Source of the DNA: Parasitella parasitica
Lineage: Eukaryota > Mucoromycota > Mucoromycetes > Mucorales > Mucoraceae
Direction of reading: 5' to 3'
DNA: 33,079 nt
Assembly: GCA_025201805.1 (NCBI GenBank)
Contig: MU619322.1
Span: forward strand, 106,672 to 139,750
This document shows positions 2,928 to 30,297 of this stretch, piece by piece. A program made the position numbers and the translations under genes. Below the pieces are notes generated by a model. That model was not told where the DNA came from. It ran no database searches and saw only the letters and a program-made list of their open reading frames with translations. Positions within the stretch are counted from its first letter, which is position 1. Each line of letters starts with the position of its first letter.

Positions 2928-3070
2928 CTTGGATTAGTCTAGTAATTAATCACTCAAGTAATATACAAAATGATTATGCCATCCAAACATGCTGGCTCAA
3001 CCTGATGGTTTCCAGATTTGATCTCGGTTCTGTGGTTTATTTTGCAAAAGTTATAACCAAACGACTATTA

Positions 3071-3095
3071 AGAGCATCTCCAACGGAGGTGCTAA
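3071..3095 (+). repeat. Left terminal inverted repeat (downstream end of the Fanzor gene)
   Basis: Begins AGAGCATCTCCAACGGAGG and pairs with 4640-4664. It is internally self-complementary (AGCATCTCC / GGAGGTGCT, one mismatch). It lies about 195-220 bp beyond the Fanzor stop codon. Confidence 0.85.
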
Positions 3096-3290
3096 TTTTA
3101 CAAAATTTCCAAAAGAAAATTGGTGAGAGGATGATACTTTCTTTTTTTTTTTTTTGGACAATTTTACTCACCTGTAATGGTGTATAGGATAAATCGAATA
3201 CCCATGGCGTATCAAAGAGTAATATCAATGACACACAATGCTTGCAATTATTCTTTTGATTCAGAACGCTGGAATGGTGAAAGACGAGCG

Positions 3291-4284
3291 TCATTGTTTC
3301 TTGCTGCATGTAAAAATATGTTGAGGATGTTTTTTTGCAGCCATCATATCGCAATTCCAAATAATATTATAAGCGGTTTCTTGACACTGTAATATAGAAT
3401 GTACTCTTCGCTTTGCTGATCGTTGCACAACGTTTTCAACATTTCTTTTTTCGCAGTTGTTGCAGACTTGACTGGTGAGGTATTCGTCTAACATTTGGAC
3501 TGTAACACCACGATTTTCTTTACATTTTTGAAGAGCTTTTATGATAGTCTTTGTAGGTCCAGATCTTTTGCCTCTCATGGTAGGTGAAAATCTTCCATCT
3601 CCATAGGCAATGATGGTTTTATTTGCCTTAACTGATCCATCAAGTGGTGGAGGGCGGGAGTAAGAATTGTTGTTTCTCGTTGTTGTCTTCACATTGGTGG
3701 ACGCACCCGTACGATATTTGATGCTATCATGAGTAAACATCTTGACTATTTCGCTGAAGGCTTTTTGCTTCTTTCTATAACATCTAAACTTTAATTTTGA
3801 AGACCTATTCCATTTGGTTAACACATTTTTAAAATATGTACGAGAGTTTGCTACACTTACCAAAGGCCTCTGTTATAAAATTCATACATTGTATCGTAGG
3901 ATTGTATACACTTTCTGCAAGCAATCAAGAATTTTGAAACTTCTTCGGTTTTTAATGAATCCAGTTCTGTTATCACTCTATGAGTGTTTGTGTGCTTCGC
4001 TTGATGAATCTTTCGAATGTGAGCTGCATCATTAAACCCACACAGTGATAATACTCCTTTTGACTAAGTGATCTCACTCTACCAGCTTGGTCGTCTATAG
4101 TAAAAACCGTGCTAATTCCAGGGTCTACCACCCACACTTGGCACCCATTGTCAATATCTGTTTTCAGGTCAGATGGCTTTACGGGAAGAGAGTCTTTCTT
4201 CTTTTTTGCTGTAATTCTTGAGAAGACAAAAGAAACTGAATAACCATCCGTGTAGATAACATTCCTAATATAACTTGATAAGTT
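3291..4284 (-). pseudogene. Fanzor (TnpB-like RuvC nuclease), N-terminally truncated and frameshifted
   Basis: Read on the reverse strand. An opening TDGYSVSFVFSR leads into VWVVDPGISTVFT, the RuvC-I motif with its catalytic Asp (codon 4125-4123). Reading continues to KEYYH, is broken by a one-base frameshift near 4036-4046, and resumes with GFNDAAHIRKIHQ. A 56-bp GT..AG intron (3860-3805) joins EFYNRGL to WSSKLKFRCYRKKQ. Then come YGDGRFSPTMRGKRSGP, the RuvC-II region MLDEYLTS with its acidic pair, a zinc-ribbon start CNNC, and a RuvC-III-like WNCDMMAA that keeps Asp but has Cys where the family has Arg. One Cys of the second zinc knuckle also appears lost. The N-terminal few hundred residues usual for Fanzors do not fit in the remaining 380 bp of the element. 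Probably inactive. Confidence 0.8.
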
Positions 4285-4639
4285 CTAAGGCATTACTAAA
4301 TTAAAACTATATGAACTTACTTAAAGATCTTCTTTCCATTGTATAAAGTTTAACTAACTATACAAACTTTATTAACATTTTCTAAAATGGCCAGTACTTC
4401 TGTTCTGAATGCTCATCTTAATGTTAAAAGTGTGAGGTTTATAGTATGAAATATATAAAAGTGGGTTGAATAAAAGTAGTGAGCACCAGCTCCTGTTTTG
4501 AAAGTAGAACGACTTTGCAGAAAGAAGAAAAGATAAGAATAAAATAGTAAAAGAGAATACAATGGATTCAAGAGCCAAGGGAGTAATTCAAAGAGCTTCA
4601 GAGACAGAAAAAAAAGGGATGCTTTAAATGGCTTTTTGT

Positions 4640-4664
4640 TTAGCATCTCTGTTGGAGATGCTCT
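4640..4664 (-). repeat. Right terminal inverted repeat
   Basis: Reverse complement of 3071-3095 with two mismatches. It contains a perfect 8-bp stem with a 5-nt loop (AGCATCTC-TGTTG-GAGATGCT). The flanking TA at 4665-4666 matches the left flank. Confidence 0.85.
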
Positions 4665-5195
4665 TATTTATCTAATGCTGTTAAGCTATGTTCATTTCTC
4701 CATGTATTTTCCTATTTTGTGAATTGCAGTTCCCGCTTTTTATAATTATGCCATAGATTTTTTGAATAAAAGCCCCTGAGAATTGTATACCGTACGCTGG
4801 GCTCAGTAGTATTTAGCATAAGTATATCATATAATTTTTGTTGGAAGCCAAAAGTTTATTTCATTTTCCTTGCTTTTTTTTAAAAAAAAAAAACAAAAAA
4901 AAAAGTGAAAAAACACATGTATCAAAGACATAATTCCGAGGGCTTCACTTTGTCAAAAGCAACCGGACTCAAAGTGCCTGACTTCTCTCACAGAGGTATT
5001 CCCATCACTTTATACAAAGATCAAAGAATCAAGACAACGAGTCACTCTTCAAAGATGTTACTACTCAGTAGACTCAAGAAATCTCCTCCCAACGGAGACA
5101 CGATACATTAGCAAAAGAAGATTTTTAGGCCCATGATACGACAACCGACTTGTGGGTTCTTGTTGTCGAAACCCTTCCTTGTTTATTATTTAGTA
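4665..5195. other. Intergenic region, no confident gene
   Basis: AT-rich with T/A runs near 4866-4905. A 68-codon plus-strand frame (4905-5111) is open but has no recognisable motif, no visible promoter and a biased Lys/Ser content. I treat it as chance. The F-box gene ends immediately to the right. Confidence 0.4.
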
Positions 5196-6227
5196 CTATT
5201 GTTTGCTGCTGCTAAGGTACACAGACAGCGCACTATCCTCCAGGCTTTGGTCGGTTCTGAGCCATAGCTCTCTCAGCGATCTCCTTGTTTGATCTTGGTA
5301 CTTTTTGCTGGTGACATGATAGATTTTTTGAACAGCATTCAGTGCCTGTTGGTCTTGGATGATGCGTGCAACATAGCAAGCACATACAAAGTTCAGGAAC
5401 ACTGTGATTGTATCGTACAAGTTGGTATCATTTGACTTGGCTAGAAGTCGGTATTCGATATACGTAATAAACGTTGCCATGTTTTCCCAGACCATCACTG
5501 CTACTTCGTTTTTGAAATTGGCTCCCAAACTGCACAAGAGACGAGTGGTGGCGGCTGAGAACGCTCGGGATTTGGATATGGTTATGGGCGATTGACGGCG
5601 AGACGACGCTGCTATGCCCCGACTGTTGACAAAGACAACATGGTGAAAGATGGTCTCGACAACAGTGCTCATGTTTTCTCGTACTATGCTCCGGACGATC
5701 TGATAGTGGAGCCTTCGCTCATTCTCAATAATGTAGTGGAGCCTTTTGCACTGGTATCTGATCCGCTCCATAGCAAACCCGTATTCGTTGCCTTCATCTA
5801 AGCCCGGCTCTATTGTAGGTGGGAATGCGTCTGGTGGCGACGGCGGCCTTGTCTCTGATATGGATTGGCAAGGAAGTGGGTGTTGGTAAATGGCAAGGTC
5901 ATACACTGTTGTGTCTGTCAATGTGAGAAACAGCCAATTTCGAGGGCTTTGTGGCAGTCTAGGTGGGAATGCGTATGGGTCGTATATTGTGATCCGCTTT
6001 ATGATTCTGTGGGATATGTCTGACGTAGCTATCATTGCAGCGTTGATTTGTGATCTGAGCATAGAGTTTGAGGAAATACACCATTGCTTCTTCAGCATAA
6101 GCAGTGCAATAGACCTCAGGTCTTTGGAAGCGCGGGTTAAAGTCCAGAGATCTGTAGGATTAAGGTATTGCTTTAATATATACAAAAGCACTTCGTGTGG
6201 CAATTTAAGCAGCAAGGACTGGTGCAT
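5196..6227 (-). CDS. F-box protein
   Basis: Single reverse-strand exon of 343 aa, starting at the ATG at 6227-6225 (MHQSLLLKLPHEVLLYIL). An upstream in-frame ATG at 6302 adds a Lys-rich stretch encoded by a homopolymer leader and is less likely. Residues about 8-48 (LPHEVLLYILKQYLNPTDLW... KDLRSIA) are a standard F-box, which binds Skp1 in SCF ubiquitin ligases. The rest (Pro-rich patch near PPSPPDAFPP, then a helical C-terminal half) shows no leucine-rich repeats or WD repeats that I can see, so the substrate module is unknown. Divergent from cyclin H with a roughly 205-bp shared promoter region. No introns, unlike most neighbours. Confidence 0.8.
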   Translation of the reverse strand: MHQSLLLKLPHEVLLYILKQYLNPTDLWTLTRASKDLRSIALLMLKKQWCISSNSMLRSQINAAMIATSDISHRIIKRITIYDPYAFPPRLPQSPRNWLFLTLTDTTVYDLAIYQHPLPCQSISETRPPSPPDAFPPTIEPGLDEGNEYGFAMERIRYQCKRLHYIIENERRLHYQIVRSIVRENMSTVVETIFHHVVFVNSRGIAASSRRQSPITISKSRAFSAATTRLLCSLGANFKNEVAVMVWENMATFITYIEYRLLAKSNDTNLYDTITVFLNFVCACYVARIIQDQQALNAVQKIYHVTSKKYQDQTRRSLRELWLRTDQSLEDSALSVYLSSSKQ

Positions 6228-6432
6228 TTTTTTTTCTTTTTTTTTTTGCAGTGCTTTGTGTGAGATAAGAAAAAACAAAGAATTGAAAAGAAAAGGGAGC
6301 ATGCATTGAAGCTGTATTTATGTGCATCATTGTTGCGAAATAAACTCGAGTCACTCGGAAATGAAAGGCCTAAAATTTCCAAGGTCGCTGTATACAAACA
6401 TGCGCAGCCTTTCTCCCTATTCCGTTCACATC

Positions 6433-28955: not shown

Positions 28956-29610
28956 ACTTATATCTCGACACGAGCCTTAGACATTTACTAGATTTAGAAT
29001 ATGCTACGAGCTTATGCTATATAAGATCTATCCTTCAGATGTGTATTCCCAGTTTCTAAATACGCATTACAAGACATATACTTATATCCATGATACTGGC
29101 TACAGATACATCATGTAATACAGACTTGTACAATATGTGCAATGCTATAGATATGCTTATGAAATGCTTAAGACATGCTACATATACCGATATATGCTAA
29201 GATGAATACCAAGTGATATACACTCAGACATGTACTATTAATATAGACTGGATAAGACTATACAAGGAATGATATACGCTTATGGATCGATATTAATAAT
29301 CTTCGCATAGAAGATTGATCTGGGTGCTACCTCGGTTAAAGTCTATCTCCTCACTCAAATAGATTTAAGTTATCTTGAGTCTGCTGATATGTAGCTTAGC
29401 ACAAAGTTAAGATGCTAGTTACGCATTATTGTCGTACATGTTAAATTGCGAGAATAGAATATTCATCCACAGTTGAAGTATATAAAGGTTCATCTACCTG
29501 GCCAGTAGATAAACTGGAGCTTTATACACCGGTCGATTTGATAATAAAACCTATACCTTTATCAAGTTGACTTTATTGTTTTTTTTTATTATAATTTTTT
29601 TCCGTGAATC
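28956..29610 (+). repeat. Left arm (655 bp) of a giant inverted repeat
   Basis: Exact reverse complement of 29643-30297 at every position I checked: both ends and several internal anchors, with no indel. Any base x pairs with 59253-x. The arm has no ORF of 60 codons. Near its inner end it has TATATAAA (29479-29486) pointing towards the spacer and an ATAATAAAAC poly(A)-like signal downstream, like the regulatory end of a retroelement LTR. Confidence 0.92.
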
Positions 29611-29642
29611 TATTTTGTGGAATCGGTATAAATTGTTATATG
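29611..29642. repeat. 32-bp spacer of the inverted repeat
   Basis: Contains TGGAATCGGTATAAATTGTT (29618-29637), also present at 28757-28776 just left of the palindrome; the identity extends one more base on both sides of that copy pair. It joins the two arms and would form the loop of a hairpin. Confidence 0.85.
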
Positions 29643-30297
29643 GATTCACGGAAAAAAATTATAATAAAAAAAAACAATAAAGTCAACTTGATAAAGGTAT
29701 AGGTTTTATTATCAAATCGACCGGTGTATAAAGCTCCAGTTTATCTACTGGCCAGGTAGATGAACCTTTATATACTTCAACTGTGGATGAATATTCTATT
29801 CTCGCAATTTAACATGTACGACAATAATGCGTAACTAGCATCTTAACTTTGTGCTAAGCTACATATCAGCAGACTCAAGATAACTTAAATCTATTTGAGT
29901 GAGGAGATAGACTTTAACCGAGGTAGCACCCAGATCAATCTTCTATGCGAAGATTATTAATATCGATCCATAAGCGTATATCATTCCTTGTATAGTCTTA
30001 TCCAGTCTATATTAATAGTACATGTCTGAGTGTATATCACTTGGTATTCATCTTAGCATATATCGGTATATGTAGCATGTCTTAAGCATTTCATAAGCAT
30101 ATCTATAGCATTGCACATATTGTACAAGTCTGTATTACATGATGTATCTGTAGCCAGTATCATGGATATAAGTATATGTCTTGTAATGCGTATTTAGAAA
30201 CTGGGAATACACATCTGAAGGATAGATCTTATATAGCATAAGCTCGTAGCATATTCTAAATCTAGTAAATGTCTAAGGCTCGTGTCGAGATATAAGT
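29643..30297 (-). repeat. Right arm (655 bp) of the giant inverted repeat
   Basis: Mirror of the left arm, with TATA motif at 29767-29774 on the reverse strand, also directed at the spacer. Outer flanks on the two sides are unrelated, and no target-site duplication is evident. Confidence 0.92.

Follow-up and report, generated by a model that had tools for sequence, protein, structure and literature searches.

Fanzors belong to a kind of enzyme for which RNA-guided cutting of DNA is known from elsewhere, and the locus considered here raises the question of how a gene of this kind came to lie between two short inverted ends in the genome of Parasitella parasitica, and of what could have moved it. 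The window, by which we mean the whole stretch of 33,079 nucleotides that was analysed, corresponds to positions 106672-139750 of contig C86 in an assembly of 30.7 Mb and 232 contigs, and the element occupies 3072-4663 of it (GAGC...GCTC; Table 1). We consider it highly probable that the locus is a broken, internally deleted Fanzor1 gene in a non-autonomous transposon, whose movement in trans likely depended on a PIF/Harbinger transposase with the same ends.

Table 1. Features of the Fanzor-bearing element, in positions of the window
Feature	Position	Strand	Remarks
Left target-site flank	3069..3071	.	TAA (3-bp TWA); size taken from the empty sites of a relative
Left TIR	3072..3095	+	GAGCATCTCCAACGGAGGTGCTAA; adjoins the 3' end of the Fanzor gene
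Fanzor stop to element end	3072..3290	-	candidate place of an omega (guide) RNA
Fanzor exon	3291..3804	-	RuvC-II (DEYLTSQVCNNC), zinc ribbon, RuvC-III NCDMMAA; frame lost past MAAKK
Predicted intron	3805..3860	-	56 nt, GT...AG, splits the Trp codon of NRGLW|SSKLKF; from sequence comparison
Fanzor exon part	3861..4063	-	LCGFNDAAHIRK...FYNRGL; one frame off the upstream piece
Open reading frame	3973..4284	-	TDG (VIYTDGYSVSF), RuvC-I (VVDPGISTVFTI); frame lost past KEYYH
Deletion junction A	4338..4343	.	microhomology TACA; 5 copies
5' region of the element	4344..4639	-	retained
Right TIR	4640..4663	-	TTAGCATCTCTGTTGGAGATGCTC
Right target-site flank	4664..4666	.	TTA; middle base unlike that of the left flank

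The Fanzor gene in the window copy

An earlier note on this DNA had described a relic of a RuvC nuclease on the reverse strand, and the profile search agreed with it: the open reading frame at 3291-3872 on that strand matched the Pfam family PF07282 with an E value of 3.5e-5 and 24.3 bits, below the Pfam cut-off of 26.3 bits, and L043, the longest Fanzor copy, reached 36.2 bits, above that cut-off. The three RuvC motifs that the note had called readable were found as VDPG (RuvC-I), DEYLTSQVCNNC (RuvC-II together with the zinc ribbon) and NCDMMAA (RuvC-III), the last with its Asp retained and the preceding Arg lost (RD to CD). The C terminus of L043 had the Fanzor1 of Guillardia theta as its best match in the PDB (E 6.4e-4); a PDB search with the window open reading frame alone gave no Fanzor, its best hit being a bacterial entry at E 0.17.

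A first protein search returned two relatives, the better of which came from Pilobolus umbonatus (690 aa; 49% over 77%), and a second search returned 15 with the query included, among which the named relatives belong to Thamnidium, Rhizopus microsporus, Cokeromyces, Mucor, Pilobolus and Phycomyces. The closest named proteins to the window Fanzor are from Mucorales. The window gene was read against the proteins P0001 (Pilobolus umbonatus) and P0002 (Thamnidium elegans); TDG and DPG share one frame, the frame change follows KEYYH, and the exon join at the predicted intron is consistent with P0002. An AlphaFold2 model of P0002, for which the input alignment held 14 sequences (P0002 included, P0015 left out), was discarded with a mean pLDDT of 48.1 and a pTM of 0.26.

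According to PMC10711439, in the part available, Fanzors have as their fingerprint a DPG together with a Glu that precedes the zinc motif by six residues, and Fanzor1 is characterised by a TDG motif that is assigned to the WED domain. The window gene has VDPG and, in EYLTSQVCNNC, a Glu six residues ahead of the CxxC, and in VIYTDGYSVSF it has the TDG motif of Fanzor1. Where Fanzor1 has a C4 zinc finger followed by RD, a zinc Cys of the window gene has become Tyr and RD has become CD, which makes the window copy a member of Fanzor1 by descent, dead rather than active. RD is intact in L043, in which the first zinc Cys is Ser, and is present in P0002, P0003, P0006, P0007 and P0012; P0004 has CD. 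Together with an N-terminal deletion, the frame change and the loss of frame at the C terminus, these two substitutions make up the lesions of the window copy. Judged by its sequence, the window gene is a broken Fanzor1-type nuclease gene.

Two further features of the window were observed. An open frame of 373 aa on the reverse strand (5196-6317), with an F-box-like match (PF12937, E 3.2e-6), adjoins the element. Farther along, 28956-29613 and 29640-30297 form an inverted repeat of 658 nt, 100% complementary with a spacer of 26 nt, for which a fold-back element, a recent inverted duplication and an assembly artefact are the alternatives.

Element ends and target sites

The inverted ends that had been described as 25 bp long were recovered as arms at 3069-3095 and 4640-4666, 27 nt in length and 93% complementary. 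Across the family, the terminal inverted repeat (TIR) measures about 24-27 bp, begins with G and is of the GAGCATCTCCAAC type. For the analysis of ends we used 43 of them, setting aside the left end of L053 and 7 ends whose outer bases are degraded or shifted. All 43 start with GAGC or a one-letter variant, and the bases preceding it, going outward, are A (43/43), A or T (43/43) and T (40/43).

Both ends could be read in 17 copies. Identical 3-bp TWA flanks are present in 10 (7 Fanzor copies, 2 MITEs and 1 MITE with a nested Tc1), and another 4, all Fanzor copies (the window, L035, L038 and L025), are flanked on either side by TWA but differ in its middle base, the window copy reading TAA/TTA. 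The other 3 have a non-TWA flank, on one side in L021 and L046 and on both sides in L032, which has a degraded end. Agreement in 10 of the 14 TWA/TWA copies, against the 7 that a free middle base would be expected to give, is weak, and the argument therefore rests on empty sites. A 634-bp element, L052, lies inside a repeat, where its filled site reads GACATG-TAA-element-TAA-CCGC, and paralogous empty sites on C136, C38 and C77 read GACATG-TAA-CCGC with a single TAA; a fourth and more distant place of this type, on C50, has a junction too diverged for reading. These sites, which are those of a MITE with the family ends and not of a Fanzor-bearing copy, indicate that the family ends are cut at GAGC and duplicate 3 bp. 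The comparison of empty sites thus replaces the TA duplication proposed earlier with the 3-bp TAA seen in a relative that has the same ends.

In L025, the right flank is part of a repeat with which the left flank fails to align. This copy may be recombinant-like, and recombination may account for mismatched flanks generally, the observation being of L025 only. At position -4, A or T occurs in 19 of 20 5' flanks and in 16 of 23 3' flanks, a weak asymmetry that might reflect a target-side motif. The target-side motif of GtFz1, TTAAN, is not unlike the ATTAA/AATTA 5' flanks of the window family (PMC10432273, by its available part).

Copies in the genome and shared deletions

The earlier note had set a genome search with the end as a test beforehand, and other copies do have the same ends: the genome contains 45 matches to the 16-nt end TAAGAGCATCTCCAAC at no more than one mismatch, the reversed control giving 0, and some of these matches are on contigs without a match to the element itself (e.g. 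C7, C40, C52, C58, C75 and C116). The whole element matched at least 60 places, several per copy, and since the element search scored 40 of 57 candidates, the copy counts are lower bounds.

We mapped 35 loci on L043 as the reference, 31 with parts of the Fanzor element (including L047, which has only the 5' region of the element and adjoins N) and 4 transposase loci. L043, on C70, measures 3655 bp between its TWA flanks and is the only one of the 31 to span the whole Fanzor gene, in a broken frame. The anticipated relatives exist in number; the intact copy that had been envisaged among them was found at none of the 31 mapped loci, and because 7 of the 35 loci contain 800 or more N, intactness cannot be judged for these remaining copies.

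Internal deletions are shared between copies. Junction A (reference 670/2430), which relative to L043 takes out most of the N-terminal Fanzor region, is common to the window copy, L002, L003, L042 and L044; junction B (1585/2982) to L031, L038 and L049; junction C (1670/3103) to L032, L036, L037 and L021; and junction D (1270/2552) to L034 and L035. Together these cover 14 of the 31 loci, each junction being the same in its copies apart from nearby point differences and having a few bases of microhomology; L011 ends close to junction A without having it in common. The same junction at different sites implies that the deletion came first and that the deleted copy then spread, larger-segment duplication being ruled out for the copies in which both flanks were compared. 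As copies amplified in this state have no transposase, we infer that the deletion derivatives moved in trans. The earlier description of the window element holds: it is a non-autonomous cargo copy containing a Fanzor relic, and its ends recur in many relatives.

Other Fanzor-related loci were observed as well. PF07282 had 36 matches in the genome, several of them (C77, C33:6297, C25, C158 and others) at places without an element match, and around two such PF07282 loci, L060 and L063, no inverted repeats of at least 24 nt were found within about 3.2 kb. Since there are matches away from the element, Fanzors of more than one family seem to be present in this genome. L039 (C2:168500-178000) is a Fanzor copy of about 3.5 kb in which the N-terminal open frame enters, by eye, another sequence that resembles a transposase and is probably a nested Tc1.

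Harbinger transposase relics with the family ends

For the PIF/Harbinger transposase family PF04827 there were 13 matches, distributed over four loci (C71, C98, C87 and C49), and none in the window. All four loci are broken, an open frame that covers the whole family being present at none of them, and no intact transposase was found in the genome. Each has at least one family end, and both ends are present at C71 only. There, L046 is an element of 1863 bp with both TIRs, pieces of PF04827 (E 6.1e-22 and 5.7e-21) and a stretch of 188 bp from the 3' region of the Fanzor, at 94%. As the sole transposase copy with both ends, L046 is flanked by TAA/TTG, and the duplication is therefore shown by no transposase copy. 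At C98 (L045), the transposase is accompanied by a convergent partner open reading frame (by eye) and a stretch of about 230 bp from the 3' region of the Fanzor, at 93.5%; at C87, by a partner frame and a degenerate end at 84-87%; and at C49 (L066), by one end at 88%. The partner frame at C87 matched the NAM-associated family PF14303 (E 1.1e-12), and a frame of similar sequence lies at C98 (by eye); a Pfam scan of the N-terminal piece of the partner frame gave no Myb/SANT match. Most candidate autonomous Harbinger elements have a second open reading frame with a Myb/SANT domain, and Harbinger TIRs are mostly shorter than 60 bp with A or G usually as the first base, as described in the available part of PMC4482050.

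The read-through of the C49 transposase had 251 protein matches at 1e-20 or better. Among the 120 of these listed, several are named HARBI1, ALP1-like or Harbinger transposase-derived, and to P0017, P0022 and P0023, which bear HARBI1 or Harbinger transposase-derived names, the C49 transposase showed 43% over 100%. A search of solved structures with the transposase read-through gave nothing at 0.01. We also observed that the named relatives of L066 (C49:64700-66350) among the same 120 of 251 are mostly from plants, with two from Puccinia and one from an oomycete, and that none is labelled Mucorales; this may be sampling or a hint of transfer.

The area of the 5' end of L043 contains 40 bp and 64 bp of the 5' region of the C71 element, at 95% and 92%, and the 64-bp stretch sits in an open frame running into the PF04827 match; Pfam gave no match for the 74 aa of that frame itself. 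With the sharing of ends, these internal stretches indicate that the Fanzor and transposase copies share sequence both at their ends and inside. A tree of 23 3' ends was star-like with weak support and gave no order of events, and the ends from C98 and C71 fell, with the same weak support, inside the set of Fanzor copies. L045 and L046 retain the Fanzor 3' end without the gene, and in this they recall the Fanzor ghost loci described in the available part of PMC10432273.

The 3' end as a candidate guide RNA and the palindromic TIR

The region 3072-3290 is present in the aligned Fanzor copies and also in two Harbinger transposase copies. For the 150-nt 3' end, the folding z-scores were -3.42 in L043, -3.15 in L004, -2.78 in L046 and -1.60 in the window, the window fold being the weakest; the TIR hairpin appears in all four RNA folds. 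The modelled folds offer a lead, namely that the 3' end is a candidate omega RNA. Because the TIR hairpin is the last RNA fold before the flank, it would adjoin the guide if such an omega RNA exists.

The TIR is a palindrome, AGCATCTCC-AAC-GGAGATGCT, and the ends that had been described as able to fold back on themselves do have 9 bp of self-complementarity at both ends in most copies. Over the 43 ends there is very little variation in the outer arm, while the inner arm varies, with 12 changes at position 15 and 11 at position 19. The 11 changes at position 19 give T-G, which can pair as a wobble in one strand and is mismatched in the other, and no compensated pair, with both sides changed and still Watson-Crick, was found in the 43 ends. 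A palindrome without covariation leaves a special hairpin function unsupported. The palindrome may be the remnant of a symmetric binding site. A text search of the literature for the letters of the TIR gave three papers, whose titles do not concern transposons, and a further one gave 15 of 366 entries without specificity.

Alternative explanations

The identity between the ends of the Fanzor element and those of the Harbinger relics makes it likely that a Harbinger transposase moved the Fanzor element; the degenerate end at C87 and the broken state of all four transposase loci count against this, and the shared ends could also stem from recombination. In a history of that sort, the Fanzor and Harbinger elements would have been separate and recombination or gap repair would have swapped ends between copies, either with the Fanzor reaching the family ends late or with the transposase copies gaining the Fanzor 3' end by exchange. 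The position of the C98 and C71 3' ends within the weakly supported star-like set of Fanzor copies, the recombinant-like flanks of L025 and the four TWA/TWA copies that differ in the middle base fit such exchanges. However, both ends are shared and L043 contains sequence from inside the transposase region, and we regard the two variants, taken together, as rather unlikely; they concern history and are compatible with Harbinger as the carrier. Less probable still, in our view, is a composite Harbinger-Fanzor transposon, in which transposase, partner and Fanzor once lay within one pair of TWA-targeting ends, an RNA-guided Fanzor cut would have acted on restored TWA empty sites with repair copying the element back, and the gene-less 3' ends at C71 and C98 would have been ghost guide loci served in trans.

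The remaining alternatives concern the class of the element and of its gene. A Tc1/mariner-type transposon with a TA duplication could be read from the TA that borders the window copy on either side (AGAGC...GCTCT) and from a Tc1-type transposase (DDE_3, E 1.6e-26) inside the family ends at C89; but that Tc1 has its own 71-bp inverted repeats and, by eye, is nested beside a TA in a MITE of the 634-bp type, a 2-bp flank with AGAGC agrees in 3 of the 14 TWA/TWA copies (hand count), and the empty sites carry TAA. We rejected this carrier on the nested Tc1, the TWA flanks and the TAA empty sites, and hold it to be highly improbable. Palindromic ends acting as functional hairpins, through hairpin-type transposition or as Helitron2-like ends, would agree with the self-complementarity at both ends of most copies, with the hairpin form that the 3' end is predicted to take as RNA, and with Helitron2 elements that have hairpins at both ends and carry Fanzor1 (PMC3627910, in the part available). 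In the 43 ends, however, the outer arm does not follow the changes of the inner arm, and in view of the absence of compensated pairs this candidate was rejected as very unlikely. To our knowledge, the features of Helitrons do not include a 3-bp TWA duplication or DDE transposases. Finally, the gene might be a prokaryotic-type TnpB or another RuvC protein, given that PF07282 covers TnpB too (the control genomes were prokaryotes) and that the window frame alone stayed under the curated cut-off and had no Fanzor match in the PDB; against this stand the TDG, the DPG, the alternative Glu and the predicted intron of the window gene, the best PDB match of L043, which is the Fanzor1 of Guillardia theta, and the Mucorales origin of the closest named proteins, and we see almost no likelihood in it. 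The nested Tc1-type transposon itself occupies 753-2442 of L053 (C89:127000-129720), within a Harbinger MITE of the 634-bp type.

Under the explanation that we prefer, mobilisation in trans by a Harbinger transposase, this enzyme would have excised elements at their GAGC ends and reinserted them at TWA sites, and the Fanzor would have travelled as cargo. By analogy with other Fanzors, an intact Fanzor of the family may have used an RNA from the 3' end of the element (from window position 3290 towards 3072) and may have drawn its guide from the flank beyond that end. The window copy itself would be incapable of these activities, given its N-terminal loss, its frameshifts and the change of RD to CD.

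Discussion

Fanzor1 proteins ride on many transposon classes (PMC3627910, in the part available), to which PMC10711439, as far as available, adds hAT and Crypton. With PIF/Harbinger elements of the PHIS superfamily, as the accessible part of PMC4482050 describes them, the window family has in common a TWA duplication, a short TIR starting with G and a Harbinger DDE transposase, as well as a second open reading frame and short non-autonomous copies; it differs in carrying a Fanzor and in that its transposase copies are relics. Other Harbinger cargo is known, namely TET/JBP genes in rust fungi (PMC12730594, in part).

The available part of PMC3627910 also describes MCi-5 of Mucor circinelloides (Bao and Jurka 2013), for which the role of the Harbinger transposase was called unclear. 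MCi-5 resembles the window family as a Fanzor1 in Mucorales with a Harbinger-type transposase at three of five MCi-5 loci. By the same description, it has no significant TIRs and a putative 6-bp duplication, ATTTAT, whereas the ends, the TWA flanks and the empty site of the window family are of the Harbinger type. The link between Harbinger and Fanzor was left open in 2013 because MCi-5 was without Harbinger ends or duplication. The MuDR-type elements ROr-4, PBl-3 and MCi-4 in that source are likewise Mucorales carriers of Fanzor1 with TIRs and no transposase of their own, but they have 9-bp duplications and MuDR-like ends. SpuFz1 and GtFz1 are intact and have been assayed (PMC10432273, in part), whereas the window family is known from sequence alone; for the ends of Spu-1, the accessible part of the same source states that no transposase was found within. 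In our literature search, which had most subscription papers and a 2023 survey outside it, no paper turned up that places a Fanzor on an element whose ends are clearly those of Harbinger and whose flanks are TWA.

The window family unites ends, TWA flanks, empty sites, transposase, partner gene and Fanzor, and with all of these parts meeting in one family, the link between Harbinger and Fanzor becomes testable. From the sequence evidence, the window element is a dead, repeated Fanzor1 cargo copy, likely on a PIF/Harbinger carrier; it bears on the question left open in 2013, and we do not claim priority. The family contributes a carrier of the cut-and-paste type, for which the 3-bp target is defined, and predicts a possible border of the targets of this Fanzor lineage, and its ends can be used for finding intact copies in other Mucorales.
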